This document shows, in pieces, positions 20,020 to 39,666 of a stretch of 64,000 bases of DNA. Below the pieces are notes generated by a model, which saw nothing but the letters and a program-made list of their open reading frames with translations, ran no database searches and was not told where the DNA came from. This DNA comes from a virus, in the IMG/VR virus record IMGVR_UViG_3300030090_006322, positions 1 to 64,000 of that record; one strand, written 5' to 3'. Positions within the stretch are counted from its first letter, which is position 1. Each line of letters starts with the position of its first letter. Both the position numbers and the translations under genes were made by a program.

Positions 20020-22467
20020 TTATGCGAACTGGAGTGATTTGTCAACTACATTTATAGAAATTTTATCAATTCCTCTATTTTTAACAATATAGTTTGATAT
20101 CGGGACTTGAATCAAAACTTTAACTGCGCTTTTTATTTGTCTAGCGTGATTTTTTTCTAGTTTAATTTTATTTAAAATATAATTTTCCACGCTTTTGGTA
20201 AAAGATATTTCGATGTTTCTATCTTGTAGTCTTTCCTTTATTGCTATAAGTTCTGTTTTAATTATTTTCAAAAGTTCTTTTTCCCCTAACTCGTTAAAAA
20301 CTACTACTTCATCAACTCTAGCTAAAAGCTCTGGCCTAAAATATTTTTTTAAAGATTTTTTATAAACATCCGTGTCGCTTTCAGCGTCTTGAATAAAACC
20401 CATACTTCTCTTTGTTTTCTCTTTGTGACCCACATTAGAAGTCATAACTATCACTGTTTTAGAAAAATCTATCTTTCTATTTAAGTTATCTGTAGCATAT
20501 CCTTCATCTAAAATATGCAAAAGAATGTCTAAAACTTTAGGCTCACATTTTTCCACTTCATCAAACAAAACAACACAGTTGGGATTATTCCTGACATATT
20601 CTGTCAATAACCCTCCCTCTTCATAACCGACATAACCTGCATTTGCCCCCATTAGCTTTGAAATACCAGTTTTATCTTGGTATTCACTCATATTTAGTTG
20701 TAAAAAAGCCCTCTCGTTGCCGAAAAAATATTTAGCAATTTTCTTAGCAGTGAAAGTTTTACCGACACTTGTGGAACCCACAAATAAAAAGTTACTTAAA
20801 GGTTTACAGGGGTCATTTAGACCAGCTTTTACGCATGAAAGAGCATTGTGTATAATTTTTATATTTTCTTCTTGCCCGAAAATTTCGCCATTCATTTGAT
20901 TATAGAACTGATTAAAAGAAGAGGTATTTTTAGCTATGGTTTTAACTGATAAACCTGTTTTTTCTTTAAAGACGGACAAAATATCTTTCTGTCTTATTTT
21001 TTGTTTGCGCCCTTTTTTAGCTCCATATCTCGCCATGACCTCTAAATAATCTTTTAGAAGACTTGTGAATTTTTCTTCGTCTATTTTGTCTTCTTCAGAT
21101 GTCCCCATCAAGAATTCACAAAAAGAAGTTCTTACTTGCTCTACACTAGAGGGAACTTCATTGTATTTGATTTTTGTTCTAGCTCCTAACTGATCTATAA
21201 TGTCAAAAGCTTTATCTGGAAACTTTTTGTTGCTTAAAAACTTTTCACATAAATCAATAATTGTATCGATGTCTGATTCAGAATACTTAACGTGATGAAA
21301 ATCCTCATAATAAGATAAAGCATTCATTACTATTTTTTTAGTATCAGCTTTAGAGGGTTCTTCTACCATTATCTTGTCGAACCTTCTTTTCATGGCGGTA
21401 TCTTTCTCAAAAAACTTTTTGTATTCTTGAGATGTGGTTGCGCCGATACATTTTATATCACCTCTTGCTAAAGCTGGTTTTAACATATTAGATGCGTCCA
21501 CCGCACCTTCAGAGTTGCCAGCTCCAATTATAGTGTGTATTTCATCAAAAAACAAAATGATGTTAGATTCTTTCTCTACTTCAGCTATAAGGGATTTAAA
21601 CCTCTCCTCAAACTCTCCTCGATACTTTGTACCTGCTATCATAGCGCTTATATCCACAGCGCAAATTTGCATAAGAGACATATGAGGTGGGCTTTCTTGA
21701 CTGATAATTTTTTGGACAAGACCCTCTACTATTGCTGTTTTGCCAACACCTGCATCACCGACCAAAATAGCATTGCTTTTATTCTTTTTAGATAAAATCT
21801 CTATTAATTCATGTATTTCTTTGTCTCTACCTGAAACTTTCGACGTTTTTTGCGAAACAAATCTTTCGTTTAAGTTTACGCAATATTTTGACAGGTTTGG
21901 CAGTGGACCTTCTCCTTCTATCTTTTTACTTTTTATTTTTAGGCGAACATCTTCTATTTTTTCAGGATCTAAAAGAATGTTTTTTATTTGATCAGTAGGA
22001 GGTATGCTGGTTTCTAAAACATAAGTTTCAATTATATCTTTAGCGTGGATAGTATCTATGCCATTTGCCTTCATATATTCAACAAACGGTCCTTCCATGT
22101 CTAGGATGGTATAAAGAATATGTTCTATGCCAATAAAGTAACTGTCAAAATTATCTGAAAAATCTTTAGCAAAAAATATAATTTCATTTACGTCCTCATG
22201 CCAACCACCTTGACCTTTTGAGGCTTGGAAATAATCTTTATTCTTAGCGGCATATTTTTTAAACAATTTAATAAAACTTTGCCCATCGAAAGAAATGCCA
22301 TAACTTTTTAGTCTAACAGCACAGCTATCAGATATATTTATTAAACATCCGTAAACTAGATGTGCAGTTGTAACCAAATTGTGTCCATTAGCTTCTGCAA
22401 ATTTTTGAGAATCTTTTAGTCCCTTTTTGGCTTTTGGGGTTAAATTGAAATCGGTTAGACCCATCAT
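20020..22467 (-). CDS. clpA: ClpA/ClpC-type AAA+ unfoldase
   Basis: 815 residues with the full Hsp100 layout: Clp N-domain (1-150), D1 with Walker A GDAGVGKT (237-244) and Walker B FFDEIH (306-311), D2 with Walker A GSTSVGKT (564-571) and Walker B LFDEVE (634-639), and a D2-small domain. There is no long ClpB-type coiled-coil middle domain. At 689-691, M-G-F lies where ClpA has its IGL ClpP-docking tripeptide (aligned context TKRSMGF then ARVDEVVVF), so it could feed a host ClpP; no clpP is in the window. Possible roles: redirecting host proteolysis or remodelling phage complexes. The start is one of two adjacent ATGs behind AGTGTAA. ClpC is an alternative name. Confidence 0.85.
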   Translation of the reverse strand: MMGLTDFNLTPKAKKGLKDSQKFAEANGHNLVTTAHLVYGCLINISDSCAVRLKSYGISFDGQSFIKLFKKYAAKNKDYFQASKGQGGWHEDVNEIIFFAKDFSDNFDSYFIGIEHILYTILDMEGPFVEYMKANGIDTIHAKDIIETYVLETSIPPTDQIKNILLDPEKIEDVRLKIKSKKIEGEGPLPNLSKYCVNLNERFVSQKTSKVSGRDKEIHELIEILSKKNKSNAILVGDAGVGKTAIVEGLVQKIISQESPPHMSLMQICAVDISAMIAGTKYRGEFEERFKSLIAEVEKESNIILFFDEIHTIIGAGNSEGAVDASNMLKPALARGDIKCIGATTSQEYKKFFEKDTAMKRRFDKIMVEEPSKADTKKIVMNALSYYEDFHHVKYSESDIDTIIDLCEKFLSNKKFPDKAFDIIDQLGARTKIKYNEVPSSVEQVRTSFCEFLMGTSEEDKIDEEKFTSLLKDYLEVMARYGAKKGRKQKIRQKDILSVFKEKTGLSVKTIAKNTSSFNQFYNQMNGEIFGQEENIKIIHNALSCVKAGLNDPCKPLSNFLFVGSTSVGKTFTAKKIAKYFFGNERAFLQLNMSEYQDKTGISKLMGANAGYVGYEEGGLLTEYVRNNPNCVVLFDEVEKCEPKVLDILLHILDEGYATDNLNRKIDFSKTVIVMTSNVGHKEKTKRSMGFIQDAESDTDVYKKSLKKYFRPELLARVDEVVVFNELGEKELLKIIKTELIAIKERLQDRNIEISFTKSVENYILNKIKLEKNHARQIKSAVKVLIQVPISNYIVKNRGIDKISINVVDKSLQFA

Positions 22468-22473
22468 AATTCT

Positions 22474-22480
22474 TTACACT
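22474..22480 (-). promoter_or_regulatory. AGTGTAA motif before Clp gene
   Basis: CTTAAATAGTGTAA on the minus strand overlaps the TAG stop of the polymerase gene. Six bases separate it from the first ATG of the unfoldase. Confidence 0.35.
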
Positions 22481-25034
22481 ATTTAAGTTCAGATAGTTTC
22501 ATGTAGATTTTGTCTTTTAATGGGAAGATCTTGTCAATAAACACAATATCATCCCCTTTAGACCCGTATATTATCACAATATCCGACTTTTTGGGCAATT
22601 TTTTCCCAGAATTTAAATAATCTGTTAATCGAGCGTCTCTATTGCTGTCTAGAAAAAGACCCTCTAAAATACCTCCTTCGTCTTGCATTGTAAGGCGAGC
22701 GTATTTGTTGCCATTTCTGCTTGTTCTACGCATTATATCAGTAAGCACACCGACAAATTTTATATTAGATCGCTCATTCAAATCTTTTACTGTATCTGCT
22801 GAATGAAAATCGCCTTCATAACTAAAAACCTGTCTTATATTATAAGAATAACTATAACCCAAAAGCTTTTCTTCGAAAAACCAATTAGCATATTTTATAT
22901 GCTCTTTGTTCATCTCATAAATTTCTTTATATGGTTGGAATTTTTTACGAAATGTTTCGAATCTTTTATCTGAAAACATTTTCCTATTATCGTCACCAAT
23001 CATATCCTCTTGTTTGGCACTGTGGATAGCTGTGATTATGTCGTAATTGTATTTATCGCCAATAGATATAAAATTTCTTTTTTCTCTATCAGTCAAAATA
23101 TTGAATGTTTGAGCTTCTAGGACTAGTCTAGGTCTATTGCTTTTTACAAAGGAGTCTAGTAGACCCGCTTGAATTAAAGCTGAAAGAGTACCGATATTTA
23201 AACCAGCTTGTTTCGCTGATAAAAACACTTCATACTTGTTAGAGAATGACTCCTCTCTAAAATCAAGTAAAGACTGTAAAACCTTGGTCGATACGCCTTT
23301 TATTGAATTTAAGCCATATCTTATGTTTTTACCCTCTATTTTAAAATCTATGTCTGATTTATTTAAGTCAGGTGGCAAAAGCTTTATGTCAAAATGAGAA
23401 AGTTCTTGAGATATTTTAGCTATCTCCTCATGAGAATTAGGTTCAAATTTCGCGTATTTTAAAAGACTTAAAAAGAACTCTTGCGGATATGTAAACTTCA
23501 AATAAACAGTTATAGCAGCTAAGTGTGCATAACTAATCGAATGGGATTTGTTAAAAGAGTAATTAGCAGAGTCTTCTGCCACTCTCCATAAAACATCTCC
23601 AATAGCAGGGTCTAATTTATTTTCTTGAATCTTATCCTCGATTCTCGCTTTCCATGCTGGCATTTGATCGACTTTTTTCTTGCCGACAATCCTTCTTAGT
23701 TGCTCCGCTTCATCTAAAGTAAAACCTACCTTTACAGCCATTTTCATTAACTGTTCTTGGTAAAGAGGAATACCACCTGTGTAGCTCAAAATATCATCAA
23801 AAAACTCATGAACCGATTGGAATTCTCCAGTGCGAACGTATGCCGCATAACTATCTTTGAAATCTAAAGCTCCAGGTCTTGCTATAGCTACTACAGCAGA
23901 TAATTGTTCAAGATTTTGAGGCGCGATCAAACGACAAACTTTGAAGTTTGTCTCCGCTTCGATTTGGAATAATCCTTGTGGAGAGCGCAAAGAGGATAAA
24001 GCTGTATAAATAATTTTATCATGAACGTCTATTTCTGATACATCTATACCCACTTGTTTGCAAACGTCATGAACAACAGAAAGCGTTCTTAAGCCAAGGA
24101 TATCGAACTTAACACTAAGGCTCGCGACATCATTCATGTCATATCCAGAAACTAAAGCGCCATCATTAGTTACTTGAAGAGGCATAATGCCATCTAGATT
24201 ATAATATGAAATAGAAATGCCAGAAGGATGCACACCAGTATTTTTATTTAACCCTTCTAGTTTTTTGGCTATCTTAAAAACTTTAGGATATTTATCGGCA
24301 TAAGATCTAAAAGATTCGCTGTCATCATAAGCCGCATCTAATTTGGAAACAATTCCGAAATTCTTTGGTATAGTATCACTGATCTGATTAACGTCTATTT
24401 CAGACAATTCAGCGACAATTTTACCGCACTCTTTCATGCATAGTTTACCACTAAGAGTGTTAAGAGTAAGAATCTTGGAAGTTTTGCCCTGATATTTTTT
24501 TTCGATGTATTCAATAACCTCTGCTCTCCGATCATATGAAATATCATTATCCACATCAGCGAGCAAACTACCATCCAGAAAAACTTCACCATTGTGTTCT
24601 ATTTTCCTAGCTCGACTTTTTGATACAAATCTCTCAAAAAAGAGATCATATTCAATAGGATCTATATTAGTCACACCGATGACATACAGAACCAAAGAAC
24701 CAGCGGCGCTTCCCCTACCTGCTCCTGTAGGGATGTCGTTTTCTTTGCAAAAATTTATAATATCCCAATTAAGAAGAATGTAGTCAGTAAACCCAAGATC
24801 ATCAAAGATGGTTAATTCTTCTTTTAATCTATCATAATAAGTTTGTGCGTTTTCAAACTTATCAATACCTTTTTCTTTTAATCTGGCAAAGCAAAGCTTT
24901 CTCAAGAACTGGAAGTTATCCCCCAGGTCTACACAAGCAACCTCGTCATAATATTTTTTTTGTATTTTAATTTCTGGGAGCTTAACGCCAACTGGAAATG
25001 GCGTATTGTAGCCTTTAAAAGTATTAGAACTCAT
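22479..25034 (-). CDS. dnaE: DNA polymerase III alpha subunit, polymerase part (PHP-less)
   Basis: 851 residues of C-family polymerase. GRGSAAGSLVLYVIGV (106-121) is the palm signature; the paired catalytic acids lie in ADVDND (D160/D162/D164) and the third in KFDILGL (D311). TGVHPSGISIS, GLFQIE, ARPGALD, YQEQLMKMA and EAEQLRRIVGKKK are further family motifs. A helix-hairpin-helix region (IRYGLNSIKGVSTKVLQSLL) and an OB fold (FVGVLTDIMRRTSRNGNKYA) follow; the tau-binding tail is absent. The N-terminal PHP domain is missing and is encoded two genes upstream. All catalytic residues are kept, so it is predicted to be the phage replicase. ATGA overlap with the exonuclease. Confidence 0.93.
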   Translation of the reverse strand: MSSNTFKGYNTPFPVGVKLPEIKIQKKYYDEVACVDLGDNFQFLRKLCFARLKEKGIDKFENAQTYYDRLKEELTIFDDLGFTDYILLNWDIINFCKENDIPTGAGRGSAAGSLVLYVIGVTNIDPIEYDLFFERFVSKSRARKIEHNGEVFLDGSLLADVDNDISYDRRAEVIEYIEKKYQGKTSKILTLNTLSGKLCMKECGKIVAELSEIDVNQISDTIPKNFGIVSKLDAAYDDSESFRSYADKYPKVFKIAKKLEGLNKNTGVHPSGISISYYNLDGIMPLQVTNDGALVSGYDMNDVASLSVKFDILGLRTLSVVHDVCKQVGIDVSEIDVHDKIIYTALSSLRSPQGLFQIEAETNFKVCRLIAPQNLEQLSAVVAIARPGALDFKDSYAAYVRTGEFQSVHEFFDDILSYTGGIPLYQEQLMKMAVKVGFTLDEAEQLRRIVGKKKVDQMPAWKARIEDKIQENKLDPAIGDVLWRVAEDSANYSFNKSHSISYAHLAAITVYLKFTYPQEFFLSLLKYAKFEPNSHEEIAKISQELSHFDIKLLPPDLNKSDIDFKIEGKNIRYGLNSIKGVSTKVLQSLLDFREESFSNKYEVFLSAKQAGLNIGTLSALIQAGLLDSFVKSNRPRLVLEAQTFNILTDREKRNFISIGDKYNYDIITAIHSAKQEDMIGDDNRKMFSDKRFETFRKKFQPYKEIYEMNKEHIKYANWFFEEKLLGYSYSYNIRQVFSYEGDFHSADTVKDLNERSNIKFVGVLTDIMRRTSRNGNKYARLTMQDEGGILEGLFLDSNRDARLTDYLNSGKKLPKKSDIVIIYGSKGDDIVFIDKIFPLKDKIYMKLSELK

Positions 25035-25663
25035 ATTTCTAAATCAAATAATTGCTTACGAAAAACTTTAAAGTTCATCTCAATATCGTATAAAGCATCA
25101 TGCAACCTTTTAGGGTCGTGGTCAATATTATATTTCTTAAGAAGAGTAGCTTGAGATGTTTTTAAACCCCTCTCCTTATGATTTAAGAGCCTATACTGCC
25201 AACCAATAAAATCATCTTTATCTACAGGGATTTCTTTGGCTATAGCTGTGGCAAGAGATTTTGTGTCTATAATCCTAGAAACAAATGAGTAATCTGCTTT
25301 TTTACCCATTAGCTTTCTCCAAATGTTAACCATGTATACATCAAAACCCAAAAGATTTTGGCCGATAATTAAATTATTTTCGTCATAAAGGTCTTTTGAA
25401 AATTCCTGCCAAACTTGATTGGGGGCTTTGCATTTCTTATTGTATTCTTTCATGGAGAACCCCGTCACTTTAGCAGCTCCTTCTGAAACATCTAGATTGG
25501 GCCAATGTATAAACATATCATTCCGCGCCACAATTTTATCTCCCTCGACCACTAGCCAAGCGACCTGCCAAGGTCTAGAAGTGATTAAATTTAAACCTTC
25601 GGTTTCTGTGTCAAAGACTATGTATCTTTGTTTTTTATTAAATCTAAGCAGTGGTTCGTTCAT
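25031..25663 (-). CDS. dnaQ: DnaQ-like 3'-5' proofreading exonuclease
   Basis: 210 residues, DEDD exonuclease. ExoI is FDTETEG (D18, E20); ExoII is IGQNLLGFDVY (D108); ExoIII is HDALYD (H188, D193), making it DEDDh type like the Pol III epsilon subunit. All catalytic residues are present. Its position between the PHP and polymerase genes makes it the likely proofreader of this polymerase. It overlaps the PHP gene by 20 bases and the polymerase gene by 4, so translation is probably coupled. Confidence 0.92.
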   Translation of the reverse strand: MNEPLLRFNKKQRYIVFDTETEGLNLITSRPWQVAWLVVEGDKIVARNDMFIHWPNLDVSEGAAKVTGFSMKEYNKKCKAPNQVWQEFSKDLYDENNLIIGQNLLGFDVYMVNIWRKLMGKKADYSFVSRIIDTKSLATAIAKEIPVDKDDFIGWQYRLLNHKERGLKTSQATLLKKYNIDHDPKRLHDALYDIEMNFKVFRKQLFDLEI

Positions 25664-26414
25664 TTTCTAAATATGATTCAAAGCAAAATTCATTACTACC
25701 AAAATGATCTAAGTTGGGACAACTTAAAGTTGCAGCCCTCCCGAAGTTTCTATTACAGAGAATTTTATATGTCTGCAAAGCCTCGACATCGCACCTGTTC
25801 TTATAAAGAATGCTTTTAACTTTTCTTATTGGTCTATTTTCTGTAAAAAGATTACCCCCAGCAAACCTTAAAACTTTTTCTTTTAGGAGATGGTCAAAGG
25901 GCAGACCGTTATCTTCAATCCAAAATGTAGGAGTTATTTTGTTAAAATTTGGAACACACTTTTTTAAGTGAAAGTTGTTGTTGAATATAAAAGAATCGTA
26001 AAATGGAATAATTAATTCTACGCTATCATCCCAGACAGAGTTTAAGAATTTAAAGTCTACTTTTCCGTTGCCAGTATGGGCGTAAGAGTAAATTCTGTAT
26101 AGCAGTCTACATCCATCATCATTGTTTGCAAATATGATAATTTTGTGATCTGAATTATCCTCTTCAGAGATATCGTTGCAACAAGTCAACCTCAAACCAA
26201 AAACCAAATCAATCTCTCTCTCTTTACATTTATTATGAGCTGTAACAAAGCCAGTCATCGAGTCTTCAACAAGAACTAGTGATTTAATGTCGTTCTCTTT
26301 GCAAATAGTAAAAATGCTATCTGGCCCACCTTCCTTATCGCTATCATCAAGAGTCAATATGCTCTTTCCTATTGAGTAAGTAGATTTAAATACAGGTATC
26401 ATTACTGCTAGCAT
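25644..26414 (-). CDS. Stand-alone, degenerate PHP domain of DNA polymerase III alpha
   Basis: 256 residues resembling the N-terminal PHP domain of DnaE: FTICKENDIKSLVLVEDSMT then GFVTAHNKCKEREIDLVFGL, and KIIIFANNDDGCRLLYRIYSYAH, which parallels the usual llA.n..Gy.nL..l.s.a segment. The His metal ligands of an active PHP (LHxHS and TDH) are absent (VFKSTYS and LVEDS instead), so it should have no nuclease activity and probably acts structurally. Combined with the 851-residue polymerase gene it gives near normal DnaE length. Either M1 or M5 could be the start. Confidence 0.75.
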   Translation of the reverse strand: MLAVMIPVFKSTYSIGKSILTLDDSDKEGGPDSIFTICKENDIKSLVLVEDSMTGFVTAHNKCKEREIDLVFGLRLTCCNDISEEDNSDHKIIIFANNDDGCRLLYRIYSYAHTGNGKVDFKFLNSVWDDSVELIIPFYDSFIFNNNFHLKKCVPNFNKITPTFWIEDNGLPFDHLLKEKVLRFAGGNLFTENRPIRKVKSILYKNRCDVEALQTYKILCNRNFGRAATLSCPNLDHFGSNEFCFESYLENERTTA

Positions 26415-26433: not shown

Positions 26434-27462
26434 TCAAGAAGAATGTGCTGGACACCCTTGATAATATCTTAATTCGCAAAAACCGCCATTTGGAACAAAT
26501 TTATCCATAAAATCTTCTTCAAAATAAGATTTAACAAATTGACCTTCAGCGTCATAGACTTCGTAATAAAAGAAATCAAACTTCATGGGGCAGTGCCACT
26601 TAGGAGATCCATCTTTTTTCAATTCTCCTTTTTTAGTCGCAAAGCCACACAAAAGTTTGCCGCTAAAAGAGTTGTCTTTTGGAAAGCCTTGGTGGGCTGC
26701 GAAATTGTATTTAGCGTCTCTTTCTGAAAAATTATCTAAATATTTTTGTATCTCTGTGAGTTGTAGCTCGAAACCTTCTAATTCATCAGAATCTAATGGT
26801 TTCATTCTGACAACGCCAGATTTAGCAGCGTTTGGATCAAGATCAAACTTTAAAAACAAAAACTCACTTATCCTATTGGAATACTCTGGGAAAAGTTCTT
26901 GGACAGCCAAGCTATACATCAAATCTTGCAAGTTGTCTGTTTGGTCTTTGCCTTTGAACACATCTTTACTTGTTTTGAAATCCCTAATTAAAGCAAACTT
27001 TTGTTTTTTATATAAAAATAGCTTGTCAATAAATCCTCTTATTTTATAAGCAATGTCCCCATCTTTTTTTATTATATCAAAATCTTTTTCGGAATACTCC
27101 TCTGTAGGCTTCGATAGATCTCCCCCAAAAAAGTCATAAGATAGACCATTAAAGATCATATCCTTCATTAAATCGATATTGTCTTTATCGTCCACGCCTT
27201 CTCTGGCAGCGTGTTTCAAAATTAATCTTTTTATAGATGGGACAGAGAAAACATCTTGGGTTTTTATTATTTTATTATAATATTTTTTTCTTTTTTTAAT
27301 GCCTAAAACCTCAAAAACTAGATGGCATATTGAACCTCTACGAGCGCCATCGTTTCCCTTTTCAGGAAGGCGCAATTTATATTTGCACCAATAAAGCCAA
27401 GAGCAAGATTGTGCAGTCTTTATTCTACTGGCAGATAGAGGTGTTTTAGGTTCAGGCATCAC
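26434..27462 (-). CDS. RecB/Cas4-like PD-(D/E)XK nuclease
   Basis: 342 residues. LSASRIKTAQSCSWLYWCKY is the usual opening of RecB/Cas4-type nucleases. The active site is readable as H47 (GSICHLVFE), D146 (IRGFIDKLF), D161-x-K163 (RDFKTSK) and a QxxxY motif (Q179, Y183). Cysteines occur near both ends (C20, C26; GCP at the end), so a Cas4/AddB-like iron-sulphur cluster is possible but not clear. It sits between primase and polymerase genes, suggesting DNA end processing in replication or recombination. There is no CRISPR context. It overlaps the primase by 11 bases. Confidence 0.85.
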   Translation of the reverse strand: MMPEPKTPLSASRIKTAQSCSWLYWCKYKLRLPEKGNDGARRGSICHLVFEVLGIKKRKKYYNKIIKTQDVFSVPSIKRLILKHAAREGVDDKDNIDLMKDMIFNGLSYDFFGGDLSKPTEEYSEKDFDIIKKDGDIAYKIRGFIDKLFLYKKQKFALIRDFKTSKDVFKGKDQTDNLQDLMYSLAVQELFPEYSNRISEFLFLKFDLDPNAAKSGVVRMKPLDSDELEGFELQLTEIQKYLDNFSERDAKYNFAAHQGFPKDNSFSGKLLCGFATKKGELKKDGSPKWHCPMKFDFFYYEVYDAEGQFVKSYFEEDFMDKFVPNGGFCELRYYQGCPAHSS

Positions 27463-28522
27463 TAAGTAATAAAGCGGTCTTTATTTCTTTTTTAGTGAAG
27501 CTTGAAGAGTTGTTTTTAACAAAATCGCAAATAAATTTAACTTGTGCTTTCTGATCTATTGATTTTTCCGACCAATATTTCCTAATGTCACAATTATCTA
27601 AATGAGCATCACCAAAATCATTATATGACTTAGGTGGAAATTTTACACTCAAAGCGTCAAGATCGAAGTAATTAGATAATTTTAAAAAGCTCTTTAACGC
27701 TGCAATAAACCCTCTATTTTTCCCACTATTTTCGTCGTTATTTGTTGAAATATATATATGGCTGATAGACCTACTACTAAGGTAATTAACAATATTATTA
27801 TTAACAGATAAGCCAAAAATGACAAGAACATTTCTAATATTTTGTTCATAAAGCGCCAATGCATCACCTATACTTTCTACTAAAATTACTTCTTTTTTTA
27901 ATTCAATCTCTTCATCGACACCAGTGTCTTTATTATAGGCTGGATAAACCCAATTATTTCGTTTGCCAATATGTTTCCACTTGGCGTAATCATTGTTGTT
28001 ATCAACCTTTCTTCCAGAAAATCCAATAATTTGGTTATGTTCATTATATACAGGGAAGACCATTCTTCTATACATCTTTCCGACACCTGCCAAACCTACT
28101 TGGAAAGCTTTTTGAGTTTTTTCTGATATCTTTCTATCTTTGTAAAAATTATAATTTGGGAATAATCGTTCTAATGAAGAATTTGGGTAAACTTTTTCCA
28201 TTTCAATTTTTTCTTTTGGATAATAAGTAACTACATCGTTTGTAGAAGAATTAACTAAAATTTCATCTATTTGTTTTTTGTCTTTAACTGTAAGTCTAAT
28301 CAAAGCCTCGAAAGGTTTGCAGCCCTTGTTTTCTACAAAATCCATCCATACGCCTGTATTTTTGTATATTTTTACAGCGGTGTTGTTATCGCCATCTCTG
28401 TAGAGAGCTTGAGTTCTCCAGTGATCTCCACAGTCTATAAGTTTATAACCTATTGACTCTAAAATGCCTTGGAAATCTTCAGAATTGATCGAAGTCTGGG
28501 ATTGTTTCTTGGATTCCATCAT
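27452..28522 (-). CDS. DNA primase, TOPRIM type
   Basis: 356 residues. The N-terminal region (YKLIDCGDHWRTQALYRDGD, VWMDFVENKGCKPFEALIRL) resembles the DnaG-type zinc-binding domain fold with few cysteines left. The TOPRIM core has VILVESIGDALALYE (catalytic Glu) and IYISTNNDENSGKNRG where DxD usually lies; its first acid is Asn, as in some other phage primases. It lacks a helicase domain, provided by the adjacent dnaB gene. It overlaps that gene by 44 bases. Confidence 0.85.
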   Translation of the reverse strand: MMESKKQSQTSINSEDFQGILESIGYKLIDCGDHWRTQALYRDGDNNTAVKIYKNTGVWMDFVENKGCKPFEALIRLTVKDKKQIDEILVNSSTNDVVTYYPKEKIEMEKVYPNSSLERLFPNYNFYKDRKISEKTQKAFQVGLAGVGKMYRRMVFPVYNEHNQIIGFSGRKVDNNNDYAKWKHIGKRNNWVYPAYNKDTGVDEEIELKKEVILVESIGDALALYEQNIRNVLVIFGLSVNNNIVNYLSSRSISHIYISTNNDENSGKNRGFIAALKSFLKLSNYFDLDALSVKFPPKSYNDFGDAHLDNCDIRKYWSEKSIDQKAQVKFICDFVKNNSSSFTKKEIKTALLLSDA

Positions 28523-29996
28523 TATCTAACTCTTCATGTCCCTCCAATACCCGAGCGATATCTCTAAGATCTCCTCTCTCTGTAATATTAAAATTATTAA
28601 AATCTAAATTAATTGCATTTTTTCTTAGAGAGTCACCTATTCTAACTGGTTCTATAGCTCCTGCTATATCACTACCTAAATGACGAGCCTTTACATTGAT
28701 TAGTTTATGAGTTCCAAATCTACCTCCCTCTGTTTCCATTTCATCAGAGGTTTTGCTACGCAAGATGAACATGTGAGAACAAAACTGTGTAATTCTATCT
28801 GATAGAGAAACAATAGATTCGTCATCAACTATGTTGTCAGAGCTTCTATTTGTTGTAATTCCATATCTATTAGACTGCACAGATGTAATCATAGGTATTA
28901 CGGGATTGCCATCATTTAAAATCTCTTTCTGAACACATTTTTTAAATTTATCAACCATCTCTCCAACAACTTGCCATTCTGACTTGTTGGAAATATTTTC
29001 AGATGTTGTCTTAATGTAATCGAAAGAGAAGACCATCTGGTTACCGCGCCCTACTTTTGCATAATAGAATCTTTTTAAAGTGTTGACCATCGAATCTACA
29101 TCCATACCTCCTACGTTGTAGTAATAGAATTTGAGATTTTTTATCTTTGGCCAAACAGATCTTACTTTCTCTACCACTTCTTCGCCAGCTCGCCTCCACT
29201 TACCGCTTTCTAGTAAATGCATAGGCACACCAGATAGGGCAGCACATTGCCTCATAATTAATTCTTCCTTGCTCATCTCCCCATTGTCGAAATGCAAAAC
29301 AGGGACATCATATTGTAAACTAACTTTAGTGGAATAGTCCATACAAAACTGTGTTTTGCCCACGCCAGATCGCGCAACAATCACAGTGATATTTCCAGCT
29401 CTTAAGAGAGATCCATAAATATCATTGATTTTTTGATGTGGACCCATCATCCCGAATTCTGTAACAGGATTATCTCCCCGCTCCTCTACAAGAGCTTCCA
29501 TCTCTTCATAAATGTTTTCTGGAGTATCGTTTCCTATCTCATAAAGGTTTATACGAGAGTTATAAACATTATCAGCTACCTCGATAATATCCCTGTAAGA
29601 AGATTCGGGGGCTATGTTTTTCATCTTCTTAGCTATCTCTTGAGATGATTCTAAAATTTCTCTTCTTATCGTATATTTTTTTAGCTCTTTAGCTGTCTTA
29701 ATAATATTACCTTTAGGAACTTTTCTTAAAGATAGGGACTTGATATAATCTGAAGGGTTTAAATTATCTTCGAACGAAAGCCCGACTTCGTTGACTCTTT
29801 GAGCCACAATGATTTCATCTATTTCATCTCCAGCGTTAATTGCTTGTTGGATGATCCTAAAAATTGCAGAATGTAAAGAGCTTTGTTTAGAATAAAAATC
29901 AGAGTTGCTAATAAAGTTAGAAATCTCTGCGAGACTCTCTGGCTCTTTAATAAGTCCAGCTAACAACTGCTTTTCTAGTTCGAAATTATATATCAT
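28479..29996 (-). CDS. dnaB: Replicative DNA helicase DnaB
   Basis: 505 residues from the ATG at 29996, chosen because it forms a TAATG junction with the upstream gene and starts the family at EKQLLAGLI; the frame stays open 28 codons further. The N-terminal helical domain (1-150) precedes the RecA-like motor with Walker A VARSGVGKT (208-215), LHFDNGEMSKEEL (H1a-like) and FSFDYIKT (Walker B), then SVQSNRYG. It would unwind DNA as a hexamer and recruit the primase encoded next. Confidence 0.92.
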   Translation of the reverse strand: MIYNFELEKQLLAGLIKEPESLAEISNFISNSDFYSKQSSLHSAIFRIIQQAINAGDEIDEIIVAQRVNEVGLSFEDNLNPSDYIKSLSLRKVPKGNIIKTAKELKKYTIRREILESSQEIAKKMKNIAPESSYRDIIEVADNVYNSRINLYEIGNDTPENIYEEMEALVEERGDNPVTEFGMMGPHQKINDIYGSLLRAGNITVIVARSGVGKTQFCMDYSTKVSLQYDVPVLHFDNGEMSKEELIMRQCAALSGVPMHLLESGKWRRAGEEVVEKVRSVWPKIKNLKFYYYNVGGMDVDSMVNTLKRFYYAKVGRGNQMVFSFDYIKTTSENISNKSEWQVVGEMVDKFKKCVQKEILNDGNPVIPMITSVQSNRYGITTNRSSDNIVDDESIVSLSDRITQFCSHMFILRSKTSDEMETEGGRFGTHKLINVKARHLGSDIAGAIEPVRIGDSLRKNAINLDFNNFNITERGDLRDIARVLEGHEELDNDGIQETIPDFDQF

Positions 29997-30238
29997 TAAT
30001 CTTCCTCTCTTATTTGTTCTGCTGGGTGTTGGAAATGATTCTCCAGAGCCTTTGTTAAAGCAAACTCTGTCATACCGCAATCAAATTTGCAATATATAAG
30101 TGGCTTACCATTTTCAGATGAAACAGCCATAATAACTCCTTTGTATTTATCTGCTCCTCCTGATAACTCATAAAGTTTATCGACCATTTCTGTTGGAATG
30201 CAAAATTCCCCATCATCACTTCCTTCTGGTAAATTCAT
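29996..30238 (-). CDS. Small hypothetical protein
   Basis: 80 residues, acidic: a helix (EMVDKLYELSG), a beta pair (GVIMAVSSENGKPLIYCKFD) and a helix (EFALTKALENHF). No family recognised. Sandwiched by an ATGA upstream overlap with the nuclease gene and a TAATG junction with dnaB, so it may assist replication; that is inference. Confidence 0.6.
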   Translation of the reverse strand: MNLPEGSDDGEFCIPTEMVDKLYELSGGADKYKGVIMAVSSENGKPLIYCKFDCGMTEFALTKALENHFQHPAEQIREED

Positions 30239-30642
30239 AGATAAATATCTTGTTCGCTAAATAAAGATGCTTGTATTTCGTCTTGAGGGTAAACTTCTGC
30301 TAATTTTATTTTATTAGCTTGGCAAAAATTTAATTTCTTCTCATCTCTTTTGAGTTGATCGGCATATTTAAAATGATTTTTATGAAAGTGTTTAACGAAT
30401 TTAGTATGTTGAGCGCCTTGAACTTCCACAGCTATTTTTTTATTAGCATTGTAGAAATCCAAAGTCAATCTGCTGCCAACAACTCTAAACTCTTCAAACA
30501 CAATATCATTCTCCCAATATGTTCGCAAAAATTTTTTTACGTTTGTTTGGAACTTACTCCTGCTAGGTTTGTCCCAATCAATTAAATATTTCTTTGCGTT
30601 TTTAAGGTTTCTTTCTTTTCCATACTGGTCAATGAACTTCAT
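30235..30642 (-). CDS. Small PD-(D/E)XK-like endonuclease
   Basis: 135 residues. SRLTLDFYNANKKIAVEVQGAQH contains D62 then E73-V-Q75, followed by DQLKRDEKKLNFCQANKIKLAEV. This is the pattern of DUF559/Vsr-like single-domain nucleases. Possible junction-resolving, nicking or host-DNA-degrading role; the substrate cannot be read from sequence. It is between the recombinase and helicase genes with ATGA overlaps on both sides. Confidence 0.7.
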   Translation of the reverse strand: MKFIDQYGKERNLKNAKKYLIDWDKPSRSKFQTNVKKFLRTYWENDIVFEEFRVVGSRLTLDFYNANKKIAVEVQGAQHTKFVKHFHKNHFKYADQLKRDEKKLNFCQANKIKLAEVYPQDEIQASLFSEQDIYL

Positions 30643-31748
30643 GCTCCGATTTGTTCTCTGAAATAATTTATCAAAAATTTACATAAATCCTCATCCTGAT
30701 CCAGTGTTTTGAAAAGATTATTGTCGCCTTGTATTTGATCTGGGAAAGTTAAGCTGTTTTCTTTTAAAAGCTCTTGAAAGTCTTCGGTGGGTTTAATCCA
30801 AGCACCCTTCTTTTCCACAAATTCCCAAGCGTATAACAAGTCTACGATTTCTTTCTCAATCCAAATAGAGTTGCCACCAGATCGATTATATCTGACAGGG
30901 TAAGTCAAGCTTACATTAGATTTTTCATTAGGAGATTTGCAGATTAAAACTTTTGCAAAATGACCAATGATTGGGTTTTTTTTCTCGTCAATAGTTTTTA
31001 CGCTAGGATTTTGAAGAATCAAATCGGATTTGTATCTAGGCTGAAATTGAATAACGCTGTTAGCGTAATGCTGCAAGGCATATCCCCCTGTTGCTACAGA
31101 CTGTCTAGGGGGTTCTTTAGAGTATTGGTCTCTCATTTCTGACCTTACCTGACTAATAAAAATAGCCATATGGCCCCTCTTGCCTAAAGCAATGCTGGTT
31201 TGTTTGCACCAAGTAGATGCGATGCTAGCTCCTGCGGCTATTTTGGCGAACTCATCAAAACCTTTAGACGCATCATTCTTGGCGACTAAACCATCAACAG
31301 AATCTAATATAAAACAATATTTATGTTTATTCTTTTCATTGTCAATGAGTTGTTTGATGCAAGTCATTGCTGTTTCATAAATATTCGTTTCTAAAACAAA
31401 ACAAGTGCCGTCTACCCACTCATCTGCTGACCACACAAATTTGACCCCAGACCTCTCTCTCACTTCTTTACCTAACCTGCCTTCAGCTTTAATATACAAG
31501 CCTCTGGGTTTTTCTATTGTGTTTAGAAAGTTTTTCATAACTTCTAAAGCCTCGGAAGTTTTTCCCCCTTCTGTTAGACCAGTAAAGCGATGTAACCCAG
31601 GTCCAAACCCTCCATTCATGCACAAATCAAATTGAAGAGAGCCGCTAGAAACTTTGTAATCGCATTCGTCTTCAAAATTGTAGTGGTCGCTTTTGTTGGA
31701 TTTCAAGAAATTACCTAGAATATCGTTTGGGTCTGGTCCTTCACTCAT
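30639..31748 (-). CDS. RecA/UvsX-like recombinase
   Basis: 369 residues. Walker A GLTEGGKTS (57-65) and Walker B YCFILDSVDG (144-153) are clear. AIFISQVRSEM resembles RecA strand beta4, and ATGGYALQHYANSVIQFQ matches the conserved SGG.AL.F.AS segment after loop L2. It would form filaments for strand exchange and recombination-dependent replication. UvsX is the phage-type name; I leave the symbol open. It overlaps the 115-residue gene by 8 bases. Confidence 0.88.
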   Translation of the reverse strand: MSEGPDPNDILGNFLKSNKSDHYNFEDECDYKVSSGSLQFDLCMNGGFGPGLHRFTGLTEGGKTSEALEVMKNFLNTIEKPRGLYIKAEGRLGKEVRERSGVKFVWSADEWVDGTCFVLETNIYETAMTCIKQLIDNEKNKHKYCFILDSVDGLVAKNDASKGFDEFAKIAAGASIASTWCKQTSIALGKRGHMAIFISQVRSEMRDQYSKEPPRQSVATGGYALQHYANSVIQFQPRYKSDLILQNPSVKTIDEKKNPIIGHFAKVLICKSPNEKSNVSLTYPVRYNRSGGNSIWIEKEIVDLLYAWEFVEKKGAWIKPTEDFQELLKENSLTFPDQIQGDNNLFKTLDQDEDLCKFLINYFREQIGA

Positions 31749-32088
31749 TTAAAAAATCTTTTATAGTTTTATTTTTACGGGATAAATTGCCGTCTTTACC
31801 CACCTTCTCGCCAAGATTATAAGTCTTGTATTTAGAAAAGTCAACCTTAAAATTGAAAGCCCTGAATTTTTCATCAAGAGTGGATTTAAGCTTATCGCTG
31901 ACAAGATAAGCTAATGAATCAAATTTTTTGTTAAATGACACTATCGCCATAAACTCTTGAGAATAACGATCACACAAATCGTTAAGCATTTTCATCTCTC
32001 GGGCAAAAAAAGGTCTTCTGCCTTTATCTGGAACCTCTAATAATCGGAAGAGTATTTCTCTTTTATTCGGTCCTTTAGATTTGCTCAC
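31741..32088 (-). CDS. Basic hypothetical protein
   Basis: 115 residues, Lys/Arg-rich, largely helical (KREILFRLLEVPD, FFAREMKMLNDLCDRYSQEF) with a basic C-terminus. No family recognised. It links the sugar genes and the recombination genes through ATGA and 8-base overlaps. Because it sits next to the recombinase, a role as a recombination accessory factor would be a guess. Confidence 0.55.
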   Translation of the reverse strand: MSKSKGPNKREILFRLLEVPDKGRRPFFAREMKMLNDLCDRYSQEFMAIVSFNKKFDSLAYLVSDKLKSTLDEKFRAFNFKVDFSKYKTYNLGEKVGKDGNLSRKNKTIKDFLNE

Positions 32089-33134
32089 GGAAAAGTTTGC
32101 AATGAAAATACATCACAGTCAACCATTTTTTTAATCAATTGTAAAAAATTAGTTTCTGGTTTCCAACCAAGCTCTTCTCTTGCTTTGGTTGAGTCTCCCC
32201 ATAATAAATCCACTTCTGCTGGGCGATAAAAATTTTCGTTCACCTCCATGAGACAATCAGGCCCATGAAAATATTTTTCTTCCATTCCTTTACCCTTCCA
32301 TTTGCATTGAGTTCTATGAAAGCCAACAAAATTAAAAGCTTCTACTACAAACTCTCTAATGGTGTGGGTTTCATTAGATGAAAGCACATAATCTTTTGGG
32401 TTTTCTCTATCTTGATTTAGCATAAGCCAAACCCCTTTCACAAAATCTTCAGCATCACTCCAATCTCTTTTAGAGTCGATATTGCCTAATTGAAGAGGTG
32501 TGGTGGTTTGCCCTGATTCATACTCTTTTAGGATTCTAGCAACATTTTTAGTTATTTTCCTTGTGACAAACTCCTCTCCTCTTCTAACTCCCTCATGATT
32601 AAATAGCCAACCCTGAACTGCATAAATATCATAAGAATCTCTATAAACCTTGACTAAATGTCTAGCAGACGCTTTAGACGCTCCATAAGGGCTTCTAGGG
32701 CGCAAGGGATGATTTTCTGATTGTGGAGACTCAATAACATCCCCAAACTCTTCAGAACTGCCAGCGTTGTAATAACGACAATGAGGAACATGGCGGCGAA
32801 TTGCTTCTAGCTGATGCAAAACAGACATACAGTTAGTTTGCATGTGATTAAAGGGCATGTCCCAACTACTACCGACAAAAGAATTCGCTGCGAAATTAAT
32901 AAAGTAATCGGGTTTATGTTCTGAAATAACTTTTTCCGTATTTTGCGGATCAGATACATCTAAATCAATTAGAAAAAACCTTGGGTTGTCTTTTAAATGT
33001 TTTATATTCTTATGGTTCTCGACACTAAGCCTACGCACACCACCAATAATATCGTGTTCAGTGTTTTTTAGAAGATAATCTGCCATCAGACTACCATCTT
33101 GACCAGTAATTCCTGTTATTAATATTTTTTTCAT
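32085..33134 (-). CDS. gmd: GDP-mannose 4,6-dehydratase
   Basis: 349 residues, short-chain dehydrogenase fold. GITGQDGSLMADYLL is the NADP-binding glycine motif of Gmd. NAGSSEEFG (catalytic Ser/Thr and Glu) and YGASKAS (YxxxK) form the active site, and LFNHEGVRRGEEFVTRK is the family-specific GDP-mannose motif. It converts GDP-D-mannose to GDP-4-keto-6-deoxy-D-mannose, the common precursor for the next three enzymes of this cluster. GDP-mannose presumably comes from the host. TAATG junction with the Fcl gene. Confidence 0.93.
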   Translation of the reverse strand: MKKILITGITGQDGSLMADYLLKNTEHDIIGGVRRLSVENHKNIKHLKDNPRFFLIDLDVSDPQNTEKVISEHKPDYFINFAANSFVGSSWDMPFNHMQTNCMSVLHQLEAIRRHVPHCRYYNAGSSEEFGDVIESPQSENHPLRPRSPYGASKASARHLVKVYRDSYDIYAVQGWLFNHEGVRRGEEFVTRKITKNVARILKEYESGQTTTPLQLGNIDSKRDWSDAEDFVKGVWLMLNQDRENPKDYVLSSNETHTIREFVVEAFNFVGFHRTQCKWKGKGMEEKYFHGPDCLMEVNENFYRPAEVDLLWGDSTKAREELGWKPETNFLQLIKKMVDCDVFSLQTFP

Positions 33135-34045
33135 TATTCGTTAATATACCAGTTGTAAGTTTTTTCTAAACCTTCTTGCAAGGTTGTTTCGGCGGTAAAG
33201 TTAAGCTCTTTTTTTGCTTTTGTTGTATCTAAACATCTGCGAGGTTGCCCATTTGGTTTGCTTTCGTCAAATTTTATTTCACCTTTGTAGCCAACAATAT
33301 CTTTTATTAGAGTCACTAAATCTTTGATTGATATTTCTTTACCAGTTCCGATATTCATTGGTTCAGGAGAATTGTAAGAATCTATAGAAAGCTCTATGGC
33401 TTTAGCACAATCACCTGCATACAAAAACTCCCGAGAGGCAGATCCATCTCCCCACACTTCTACAAATGGCGCATCCTGCTCTTTAGCTTCAATAAACTTT
33501 TTTAAAAGCGCTGGTATTACGTGAGATTTTTCAGGATCAAAGCTATCATATTCACCATACATATTAACTGGGATAAGATGTATAAAATTGCTGCCGTATT
33601 GATCATGGTATGCCTTGCATCCTACTAGAAGATTTTTTTTAGCTATCCCGTAAGGAGCGTTTGTTTCTTCAGGATAGCCGTTCCAAATATCATCTTCTTT
33701 AAATGGAACTGGAGTAAATTTTGGGTAAGAGCAAACAGTGCCTAATGTAATCAATTTTTTAATATTAAAAATATGACAAGCAGACAAAACATTTAAGCTC
33801 ATTTGAGAATTTTTTACAAAGAAGTCTGCTGGAGATTTTTGATTAGCACCAATCCCGCCGCACACAGCAGCCAAATGAATAATACAATCGGGCTGGTGAT
33901 AAAAAACATAATCATTAAAATCTTTAGAAGAGCAGACATCCAACCTAGACTTGCTAGGGGTGAGAAGTTTGTATTTTTCTTTAAGAAGCTCTGTGAGATG
34001 CTTTCCTAAAAACCCCCTTGATCCTGTTATAAGTATTTTTTTCAT
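33134..34045 (-). CDS. fcl: GDP-L-fucose synthase
   Basis: 303 residues. GSRGFLGKHL is the NADPH-binding motif. GTVCSYP carries the catalytic Ser region and conserved Cys, APYGIAKK the YxxxK pair, and SHVIPALL the conserved His that pairs with that Cys in epimerisation. The product of the Gmd reaction becomes GDP-L-fucose by 3,5-epimerisation and 4-reduction. ColC (colitose synthase) is a close relative and remains possible because a ColD-like gene lies two genes upstream; retention of both the Cys and His favours Fcl. Confidence 0.88.
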   Translation of the reverse strand: MKKILITGSRGFLGKHLTELLKEKYKLLTPSKSRLDVCSSKDFNDYVFYHQPDCIIHLAAVCGGIGANQKSPADFFVKNSQMSLNVLSACHIFNIKKLITLGTVCSYPKFTPVPFKEDDIWNGYPEETNAPYGIAKKNLLVGCKAYHDQYGSNFIHLIPVNMYGEYDSFDPEKSHVIPALLKKFIEAKEQDAPFVEVWGDGSASREFLYAGDCAKAIELSIDSYNSPEPMNIGTGKEISIKDLVTLIKDIVGYKGEIKFDESKPNGQPRRCLDTTKAKKELNFTAETTLQEGLEKTYNWYINE

Positions 34046-34046
34046 T

Positions 34047-34823
34047 TTATTTAGAGTTAATTGAACATGTTTTCCAATTTAAGAAAGGAAAAATGTTTCC
34101 ATGCCATTTAATATAATCATCAACATCAGGACAGATTACATTATCTTGGTTGCCCAAAAAACCTATCCACCAACTAAAGGTTCCTAAAGATAAAATCTTA
34201 TTGGTAAATCTAGAAGCAGTTAAAATAGTCTCTTGTTCTTTAAGGTCTAAAAATTTAAAATTATAGTCTGAAATTAAAGTTTTTACAAAATCATGTTCAG
34301 GAGAGTCACTAGACAATACAAGCTCTCCTTTTAAATCTGTTTCCTCTAAAGCCTTTTTATAATATTCCAACTCACAATATTTACCAGGAGTATCGAGAAT
34401 ATCCCCTAGCCTTAAATGAATATAAGTTCCTTCTATTGGCTCTTGTTCTCCTAAGTTATTAAATAGTTTTGATTTGTTTTCGTTGAATTTATTAATAACC
34501 TCTTCGGCTTGAAAAAAACCATTTAGGAAAAAATTTGATCTAGATTTATTTCCTCCTGTAAGGAAACCTTTAAAATTTTTATCGTCAACTTTTGCAAATT
34601 GTTTTTTATCAATACAGTCTAAATATAAATCATCTTCTTGTGAAGAGTTTATAGAAAAACGATGATGAAAATGTTCGTTGTACCAATGGTTAGTATTTTT
34701 ATTATTAATACTTGTAAATAAAGGATTGGCTACGGTTTGACCGTAGTTTTCAGATAAAATTACCGCTACAAAATGCTGGAATAATCTATTACCAAATCTG
34801 CCTTTATAATCTATATAAATCAT
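34047..34823 (-). CDS. GT11 alpha-1,2-fucosyltransferase-like
   Basis: 258 residues. YKGRFGNRLFQHFVA near the N-terminus and YIHLRLGDI (the HxRxGD motif for GDP-fucose) are hallmarks of GT11; LSSDSPEHDFVKT and SLGTFSWWIGFLG match its later motifs. It would transfer fucose from GDP-fucose, which Gmd and Fcl next door can make. Length is near the lower end for this family. Acceptor unknown. Confidence 0.88.
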   Translation of the reverse strand: MIYIDYKGRFGNRLFQHFVAVILSENYGQTVANPLFTSINNKNTNHWYNEHFHHRFSINSSQEDDLYLDCIDKKQFAKVDDKNFKGFLTGGNKSRSNFFLNGFFQAEEVINKFNENKSKLFNNLGEQEPIEGTYIHLRLGDILDTPGKYCELEYYKKALEETDLKGELVLSSDSPEHDFVKTLISDYNFKFLDLKEQETILTASRFTNKILSLGTFSWWIGFLGNQDNVICPDVDDYIKWHGNIFPFLNWKTCSINSK

Positions 34824-35974
34824 AATTCACCCACAACATCCTTAATATAATTAATATCTTCAGTCGTTATTTGATGATTGTTCGGCAAATAAAATCCATA
34901 ATCATCAACATAGTCTGCATTTTTCAGACTAACCTCTCCATAATTTTTTGTCCAAAAAGGTTGCTTGCCCAAAGAGCCACAAATTAAAGGTCGTGTCTCA
35001 ATATTATTTTCTTTTAACTTTTTAACTATTTCCGTCCTGTTTGGATGAATAACTGGATAAGCAAAACTAGAAATATACTTATCATCTGTAGACTTAGGAG
35101 GTACCCAAGTAGAGTTAGTAAAAGCCTCTCTATACAGAGCATAATTATCATTTCTTTTCCCTACAATCTCATCAAATCTTTTTAACTGGTTGATACCTAA
35201 AAAAGCCTGTAGATCTGTAGATCTAAGATTAAAACCCAAATGATAAAATTTATATTGTGATTCGAAATCATTATCGACAGAGAATTTTTGTTTCAAAATG
35301 GAGGAATGTTTAGAACTCATGTCCCTGTCCCAGCCGTGACTTCTTAAAGATTTAAGTAAATTGAAAATATCTTCGTCATCTGTGCAAACCATCCCTCCTT
35401 CAATAGTTGATAAGTGATGACCATAATAAGTAGAAAAACAAGACATTGTACCGAAGTTTCCTAGCTTTTTGTTTTTGTAAGAAGAGCCTAAAGATTCGCA
35501 AGCATCTTCGATCATAATGATATTTTGCTCTTCACAAAATTCTACAATCTCATCCATTTCTGGCACTAACCCTAAAACAGAAACTAAAATTAAAGCCTTC
35601 GCTTCTTCTGTCGCAGCAAGCTCTTTAAGGTGATTAACGTCCACGGAAAGATCTGTTAGATTGCAGTCACATAAAACTGGTTTTAGACCAAGCTGCACAA
35701 CAGGAGACAAATCTGTAGCCCAAGATAAAGCGGGGACAATAACAGTATCTCCCCTTTTTAAAGCTCCACTTTCTATTAAAGAGTAAACTGCTATTAGTAA
35801 AGCGGAAGAGCCAGAATTAACAAAAACAGAATATTCGCAACCTATTTTTTTAGACCAAAGCCTTTCATACTCCTCTGTTAACTCCCCTTTAGTTAATCTG
35901 GGTGAGGTTTTTAACCATTCACAAAGAGAGCTAATCTCCGAATCAGATATTGTGTCATAAGCTAGTTTAATCAT
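34820..35974 (-). CDS. PLP-dependent sugar 3-dehydratase, ColD-like (His in place of Lys)
   Basis: 384 residues, DegT/DnrJ aminotransferase fold. PLP-binding IEDACES (D158) is present, but the lysine that normally forms the internal aldimine is replaced: CFSTYYGHHLSTIEGG has H186 where aminotransferases have Lys. That substitution is characteristic of ColD (GDP-4-keto-6-deoxymannose 3-dehydratase, active His188) and of E1/RfbH. Gmd makes the ColD substrate, supporting GDP-4-keto-3,6-dideoxymannose as product. No dedicated ColC is obvious. Alternative: an RfbH-like enzyme or inactive homologue. Overlaps the aminotransferase by 8 bases. Confidence 0.8.
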   Translation of the reverse strand: MIKLAYDTISDSEISSLCEWLKTSPRLTKGELTEEYERLWSKKIGCEYSVFVNSGSSALLIAVYSLIESGALKRGDTVIVPALSWATDLSPVVQLGLKPVLCDCNLTDLSVDVNHLKELAATEEAKALILVSVLGLVPEMDEIVEFCEEQNIIMIEDACESLGSSYKNKKLGNFGTMSCFSTYYGHHLSTIEGGMVCTDDEDIFNLLKSLRSHGWDRDMSSKHSSILKQKFSVDNDFESQYKFYHLGFNLRSTDLQAFLGINQLKRFDEIVGKRNDNYALYREAFTNSTWVPPKSTDDKYISSFAYPVIHPNRTEIVKKLKENNIETRPLICGSLGKQPFWTKNYGEVSLKNADYVDDYGFYLPNNHQITTEDINYIKDVVGEL

Positions 35975-37067
35975 CGGGTTTAAATTTATTTATTACTCCG
36001 CAGATATATTTTAATTGTTTTTTGCTTATATTGTATGATGAAGGCAAAGATATTCCACTCTCAAAAGCTTTTTCGCTAATAGGTAATTTTGAATCTGTAT
36101 TGATAAGTTCAGAATTTAAATAGCAAGGTTGTTTATTCAAGGGATAGAAAAACTCTCTTGTTTGAATTCCATTATTTTTTAAATAAGAGATTAATTTTTC
36201 TTTGTGATCTGTAAAAAAAGAAGTGAACCAGTGGACTGGAGTGGTTTTGTGGTTTGTCGGGATTTGTTGTAAAAAAGAATTTTTTATGTTTTTATAATAA
36301 AATTCAAAAATTTCATTTTTCTTTTTGATGACTTTTTTAAGTTTATGCAATTGAGATATGCCGACTGCCGCTTGCATTTCTGTAAAGCAGAAATTAAAAC
36401 CTATTGATTCATGGACAAAAACACCTTTACCCGATCTGCCATGATTTTTCATTTTATAGCAATCCTTTATAACTTTTTCATTTGGGCTTAAAACCACCCC
36501 TCCTTCTCCACAGGTAATTGTTTTATTGGCGTAAAAAGATAATACACCTGCATCGCCAAAAGTCCCTACATGCTGCCCTTTGTATAAGACTCCCATGCCT
36601 TGGGCTGCGTCTTCTATAATTTTTAAATCATGGGATATAGCTAACTCTTTCAAGCTGTCCATGTCGCAACTTTTTCCATAAAGATGCACGGGCATTATTG
36701 CTTTAGTTTTTGAAGTAATAACTTTTGAAGCTTCTTCAGCAGACATGCATAAACTATCTTTATCAACATCACACAAAACAGGAGTTGCGCCAGCAAATAT
36801 GACTGCATTCGCTGAAGCAATAAATGTCATATTAGGAACTATGACCTCATCTCCCTCGCCAATACCTAGAGCTTTCAAAGCACAAAAAAGAGCAGCAGTG
36901 CCATTAGTCATAGACACGGCATGTGGAGAGGATGTTATTTTTTTGATTAAACTCTCAAATTCTTCGTTTAGCTTATATTCAGAAACAAAGGTGGACTTAA
37001 CAACTCTTTTTAATTGTTTGAGTTCTCTTCTATCAATCCAAGGCTCAATTTGAATTACTCTTTTCAT
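35967..37067 (-). CDS. Sugar aminotransferase, DegT family, GDP-perosamine synthase-like
   Basis: 366 residues. The PLP site is intact: IEDAAQ (D153) and SFYANKTITCGEGG with Schiff-base Lys K182. The motif SFYANKTITCGEGG is close to that of GDP-perosamine synthases (Per/RfbE), whose substrate is the Gmd product. Predicted product: GDP-perosamine, made with glutamate. The GNAT protein at 13332 might N-acetylate it. Other 4-aminosugar aminotransferases share this fold, so the substrate is inferred from context. It overlaps the DUF6165-like gene by 23 bases. Confidence 0.78.
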   Translation of the reverse strand: MKRVIQIEPWIDRRELKQLKRVVKSTFVSEYKLNEEFESLIKKITSSPHAVSMTNGTAALFCALKALGIGEGDEVIVPNMTFIASANAVIFAGATPVLCDVDKDSLCMSAEEASKVITSKTKAIMPVHLYGKSCDMDSLKELAISHDLKIIEDAAQGMGVLYKGQHVGTFGDAGVLSFYANKTITCGEGGVVLSPNEKVIKDCYKMKNHGRSGKGVFVHESIGFNFCFTEMQAAVGISQLHKLKKVIKKKNEIFEFYYKNIKNSFLQQIPTNHKTTPVHWFTSFFTDHKEKLISYLKNNGIQTREFFYPLNKQPCYLNSELINTDSKLPISEKAFESGISLPSSYNISKKQLKYICGVINKFKPDD

Positions 37068-37440
37068 ACAGTGAATCGTAAGCCTTCTGCTCTCTAATTT
37101 CAGAATTATAGTGTTCGTTTATTTTGTTTTTCATTATAAATCTTTCGTCATTATACCGAGCATTTAACCTAGCGAATTCAACAAATTGATTATCAAATTC
37201 TTTTTTAGATTCTTTGTCTCTAAAACCAGCTTCGGTTTCCCAAATTTTAGAATTAATTAAAAACAGTGGCTCATAAAGATGACTTTCAATTTCGATTCCT
37301 TCCTCTTTAAGAGCATCCAAAAGCATCTCCTTTTCAGCTTTAATGTAAGATAATCTATATTCGTCTTGAATGTTTTTTATTTTTAAATCAAGAATTGTAA
37401 TTCTATCGAAAACTTCTCCTATGGCTACTTCTACTTTCAT
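37045..37440 (-). CDS. DUF6165-like protein
   Basis: 131 residues, mostly helical: VEVAIGEVFDRITILDLKIK at the N-terminus is the DUF6165 signature (S.GE..DKITIL.IK), followed by heptad-like charged helices. This family often sits with glycosyltransferases, but its biochemical role is unknown. It overlaps the aminotransferase and is 4 bases from the methyltransferase gene. Confidence 0.7.
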   Translation of the reverse strand: MKVEVAIGEVFDRITILDLKIKNIQDEYRLSYIKAEKEMLLDALKEEGIEIESHLYEPLFLINSKIWETEAGFRDKESKKEFDNQFVEFARLNARYNDERFIMKNKINEHYNSEIREQKAYDSLYEKSNSN

Positions 37441-37444
37441 TTAT

Positions 37445-39664: not shown

Positions 39665-39666
39665 AT

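Follow-up and report, generated by a model that had tools for sequence, protein, structure and literature searches.

Three overlapping genes in a viral genome encode a PHP protein, a DnaQ-like exonuclease and a polymerase, and they raise the question of how this arrangement arose. The original prediction saw either the fission of a PolC-like enzyme or an independent assembly. We analysed the window, 64,000 nucleotides out of a virus record of 91,433 bases (IMGVR_UViG_3300030090_006322), and found that all three open reading frames lie exactly where they had been placed, on the minus strand:

25644-26414, minus strand: PHP protein (php), 256 aa; a complete PHP fold with all nine metal ligands lost
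25031-25663, minus strand: DnaQ-like 3'-5' exonuclease (exo), 210 aa; DEDDh residues intact, no E. coli epsilon-type C-terminal tail
22479-25034, minus strand: DnaE-type polymerase core (pol), 851 aa; palm, thumb, fingers, HhH and a C-terminal OB

The genes are transcribed in the order php, exo, pol; php and exo overlap by 20 bp, and exo and pol by 4 bp (ATGA). The proposed identities of the products also held, as Pfam, PHROGs and NCBIfam were concordant for all three. In Pfam, the polymerase matched DNA_pol3_alpha (2e-59), the finger domain (4e-29) and HHH_6 (7e-18), the exonuclease matched RNase_T (2e-14), and the PHP match was 3e-4 in the window protein and up to 3e-10 in relatives. The assertion that the genes stand in PolC order, however, was wrong. 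In the phage, a whole PHP is encoded first and the OB lies at the C-terminus; PolC carries its exonuclease within the PHP and has an N-terminal OB (PMC3919608).

Conservation of the split and its surroundings

Scans of viral and bacterial genome contigs, with further loci added, yielded 180 family loci, some of which overlap on the same contig; 161 are complete, and the remaining 19 are end-truncated in the available sequence. Among them are 105 different polymerase proteins and 100 different PHP proteins. We found that the php-exo-pol order on one strand is kept in all 161 complete loci, with a 4-bp exo-pol overlap at 109 of 132 loci. The fused version for which the original prediction suggested searching related phages did not appear in any of the 161. 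Median pairwise dN/dS was about 0.13 for php, 0.14 for exo and 0.04 for pol, indicating purifying selection on all three genes, with the PHP diverging faster than the polymerase. Because the order is invariant and these ratios are low, the three-gene arrangement is not a chance one, and we conclude that the split is real and conserved. The PHP protein had no match in any phage isolate record of the collection searched.

In several relatives, unrelated genes separate php, exo and pol (L094:3472-5333; L005:5049-6014; L010:5382-5996; also L002 and L013, and L147 and L148), and php, exo and pol are therefore independent genes. Judged by eye, the intervening genes appear to encode an IMP dehydrogenase/GMP reductase, an FkbM methyltransferase, a cupin and a LAGLIDADG-type endonuclease. 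We considered two ways in which the products might nevertheless be joined. A programmed frameshift fusing PHP and exonuclease was rejected, since the relative frame of php and exo varies among relatives (shifted one way in 70 loci and the other way in 60, in frame in 2) and entire genes separate the pieces in some of them. An intein that might join PHP to polymerase was not seen at the borders of the PHP, exonuclease and polymerase genes.

An apparent split intein does occur within the polymerase of one relative that is 74% identical (L091:5995-8979), where the gene is broken at SFNK^SHS: the first open reading frame seems to end in an N-intein-like stretch, and the second to start with a C-intein-like one that ends in VTSN before SHSIS. 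This break would fall no more than a few residues from the split-intein site of cyanobacterial DnaE. This relative and other close ones (L085, L086, L088, L089 and L091-L095) were binned in bacterial and one archaeal metagenome-assembled genome; they are probably co-binned virus contigs.

The three genes are embedded in a block that includes primase, helicase and recombinase genes:

20020-22467, minus strand: ClpA/B-type AAA+ ATPase, immediately following the polymerase gene in most relatives
26434-27462, minus strand: PD-(D/E)XK nuclease, conserved neighbour upstream
27452-28522, minus strand: DnaG-like primase, conserved neighbour
28479-30080, minus strand: DnaB-like replicative helicase, conserved neighbour
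30639-31748, minus strand: RecA/UvsX-like recombinase, conserved neighbour

The ATPase gene was present in 135 of 165 loci, and 109 of them carry the full block of recA, dnaB, primase, PD-(D/E)XK nuclease, php, exo, pol and clp in that order. Among six family records, no beta-clamp or delta-prime match to a phage-encoded clamp or clamp loader rose above the cut-off; one weak clamp match was discarded, its open reading frame not reading like a clamp. Upstream of the replication genes, the window also holds sugar-nucleotide epimerase, glycosyltransferase and aminotransferase genes (32085-44332), and at 45372-47018 a ribonucleotide reductase large subunit of just 548 aa, which matches part of longer family profiles.

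Polymerase and PHP of the DnaE type

The polymerase core starts at the PHP/polymerase junction and has neither a PHP remnant nor a recognisable tau-binding C-terminal domain. Its NCBIfam matches were to DnaE models (PRK05673, 2e-136) and to no PolC model. A profile of the polymerase family scored 179-389 bits on full-length DnaE references and at most 51 on PolC, and mean identity was 30% to DnaE1 and 19.6% to PolC. At 27 columns that discriminate DnaE from PolC, the family has the DnaE state in 21, the PolC state in none and neither in 6. An AlphaFold model (pLDDT 88) matched DnaE structures at E values of 9e-40 to 9e-27, and PolC at 4e-19 to 3e-17. In this model OB-like strands at residues 757-839 follow the HhH (550-633), a C-terminal OB in the DnaE arrangement; the Taq DnaE OB aligns to the window polymerase as a weak second stretch, and OB-fold proteins are among the fold matches. 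The catalytic acidic residues D160, D162 and D311 are invariant in the family alignment and align with the DnaE motifs PDFDVDF and KxDFLGL. No conserved sliding-clamp binding motif was found after the HhH; the window protein reads QEDMIG there, in a stretch that is not conserved in the family. Together, the profile, discriminating columns, domain order and predicted fold identify the polymerase as DnaE-type.

In a tree with DnaE1, DnaE2, DnaE3-like, phage DnaE and PolC sequences, PolC stands apart as a separate clade (support 100), and the family forms a clade of its own (support 100). The place of the family within DnaE is not firm, as it groups weakly with phage DnaEs (support 80), and AU tests rejected neither a basal attachment on the DnaE side (p 0.26) nor one joining DnaE1/3 (p 0.16). 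Queries for intermediate relatives returned near copies only (L092) or, with Coruscant, only Coruscant's own relatives. The tree alone is indecisive, and the rejection of PolC rests on the order of the domains, the state of the insertion site, the discriminating columns and the fold.

The insertion site concerns the PHP. The php gene encodes a complete PHP that starts at the PHP itself, with no N-terminal OB. Where PolC carries its exonuclease, family members have 14-21 residues, against 211-213 in exonuclease-bearing PolCs; two reference PolCs without an inserted exonuclease have 23-24. The best-scoring PHP reference by sequence profile was a phage DnaE PHP, and the predicted model (pLDDT 88) found its best Foldseek match in the PHP of E. 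coli alpha (E 4e-11, TM 0.72), with PolC at E 0.15 or worse. An active PHP is recognised by the metal ligands HHDHEH(C/H)DH (PMC12926913). All 70 aligned family members keep none of the nine, and we therefore class the protein, on its residues, as an inactive PHP. The full set is retained in all six PolCs examined; of six fused phage DnaEs, five have eight or nine.

The exonuclease has an active site of the DEDDh type (D18, E20, D108, H188, D193) that is invariant in the family alignment. Its affinities are spread: weak scores were similar for Flavobacteria DnaE1-fused, PolC and Microbacterium phage DnaQ exonucleases. Against eight bacterial genomes, its profile found a Flavobacteria DnaE1-fused exonuclease best (2e-8), followed by that of PolC (9e-6). 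The enzyme has no equivalent of the C-terminal tail with which E. coli epsilon attaches to the PHP, so any contact here must differ.

These results bear directly on the proposal that the three genes derive from an ancestral PolC that broke up with its order retained. The closest PDB sequence match of the exonuclease is indeed a PolC exonuclease, the PHP profile has its best, weak, PDB sequence match in PolC, and the AU test does not reject a tree in which the family shares one side of a branch with PolC. Against this stand the absence of any PolC-state column, the C-terminal OB, the whole PHP with an empty insertion site, the better DnaE folds of polymerase and PHP alike, and the exonuclease profile's preference for the Flavobacteria enzyme. 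A PolC origin of polymerase and PHP is ruled out by the domain order, insertion site, columns and fold, and we regard the fission of a PolC-like enzyme into these three genes as highly improbable. The other option of the original prediction, independent assembly, fits better, in the form of a phage DnaE fission at the PHP/polymerase junction combined with a separate exonuclease gene.

Comparison with known replicases

Like the phage, the E. coli Pol III core (DnaE1 alpha with DnaQ epsilon) combines a DnaE-type polymerase, an inactive PHP and a separate exonuclease, and there the PHP is the part that binds the exonuclease. In E. coli, however, PHP and polymerase form one chain, whereas in the phage the PHP is encoded separately, the epsilon tail is missing from the exonuclease and a tau-binding C-terminal domain is not recognisable. 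PolC of Firmicutes likewise unites a PHP, a DnaQ-like exonuclease and a C-family polymerase but, unlike the phage, does so on one chain, with the exonuclease in the PHP, an N-terminal OB and, in the six checked, active PHP ligands. The Flavobacteria DnaE1 with fused exonuclease (PMC3919608; L250, L251) resembles the phage in pairing a DnaE1 polymerase with its own exonuclease, but carries exonuclease, PHP and polymerase in that order on one chain.

Among phages, Cellulophaga phage phiST and Tenacibaculum phage Larrie (Cbastvirus) have a DnaE that is naturally split into two adjacent genes. In phiST, unlike in the family, the palm itself is interrupted, at a point close to residue 144 of the window polymerase; in both phages the first half keeps the PHP, and the two halves are not separated by an exonuclease gene. 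In Pseudomonas phage KPP12 (Pbunavirus) and Vibrio phage JSF39, an exonuclease or exonuclease-like protein is encoded by a separate gene directly upstream that overlaps DnaE by 1-20 bp. Their DnaEs (1036 and 987 aa) are each encoded by one gene, and 220-260 N-terminal residues precede the polymerase match. Splits of DnaE elsewhere in the chain (phiST) and an exonuclease beside a one-gene DnaE (KPP12) are already known. In this family an otherwise ordinary enzyme of bacterial type is cut at an unusual place, and a free PHP with an exonuclease gene between php and polymerase was not described in the open-access PMC literature searched.

A probable split replicase and its alternatives

We propose that the replicase of this uncultivated phage family is probably a DnaE whose PHP has been split off as a separate, catalytically dead subunit, a scaffold that holds a separate proofreader at the polymerase. 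The PHP domain of a DnaE would have been parted from the polymerase core at a natural domain junction, and the gene for a DnaQ-like proofreading exonuclease would have come to lie between php and pol. The three products, made together from overlapping genes, would assemble into one replicase in which the 851-aa core copies DNA and the exonuclease proofreads, while the PHP, no longer binding metal, would keep the exonuclease beside the polymerase and support the polymerase fold. That the three proteins may bind each other, and that the PHP may serve as a scaffold, we infer by analogy with E. coli. There, a fragment of alpha limited to the PHP (residues 1-270) is soluble and fully exonuclease-binding (PMC3642679), and the phage break occupies the equivalent junction. 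The metal-less E. coli PHP also serves structurally, being coupled to the palm over a distance of more than 30 A (PMC3666897). That the change went in the direction of fission is likewise inferred, and on this reading php and pol would descend from one fused gene.

It is conceivable, though on balance improbable, that the module was instead pieced together, with php and pol taken from different DnaE genes (of a host, another phage or a duplicated copy) and joined with the exonuclease. The faster evolution of the PHP would suit such a history, as would the failure to find a fused ancestor within the family and the unrelated genes between the three in some relatives, by which the module can evidently be rearranged. 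Yet the order is invariant, the break coincides with the junction of PHP and polymerase, both proteins show similarity to phage DnaE sequences, and fission in place takes fewer steps. Less credible still is a PHP that works outside the replicase, for example by binding only the exonuclease or by targeting a host protein. The loss of all metal ligands and the faster divergence than the polymerase might be read in that way, but the gene always adjoins those for exonuclease and polymerase and is under purifying selection, and the fold is that of a polymerase PHP, not of a free PHP enzyme.

The preferred reading, a DnaE replicase with a detached PHP scaffold, also has a bolder extension that we think rather unlikely: the PHP would be a trans-acting, purely architectural subunit, forming with the exonuclease a detachable proofreading module that joins and leaves a PHP-free DnaE core during replication.

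These findings bear on why replicative polymerases keep the PHP after its catalysis is lost. The family offers a natural experiment, in which the PHP is dead in every aligned member and cut free, yet kept under purifying selection. Its putative scaffold role thereby becomes testable by omitting or swapping one protein, not by mutating one large chain. Together with the split DnaEs of other phages, the family further indicates that phage DnaE replicases have been broken at different places in different lineages.
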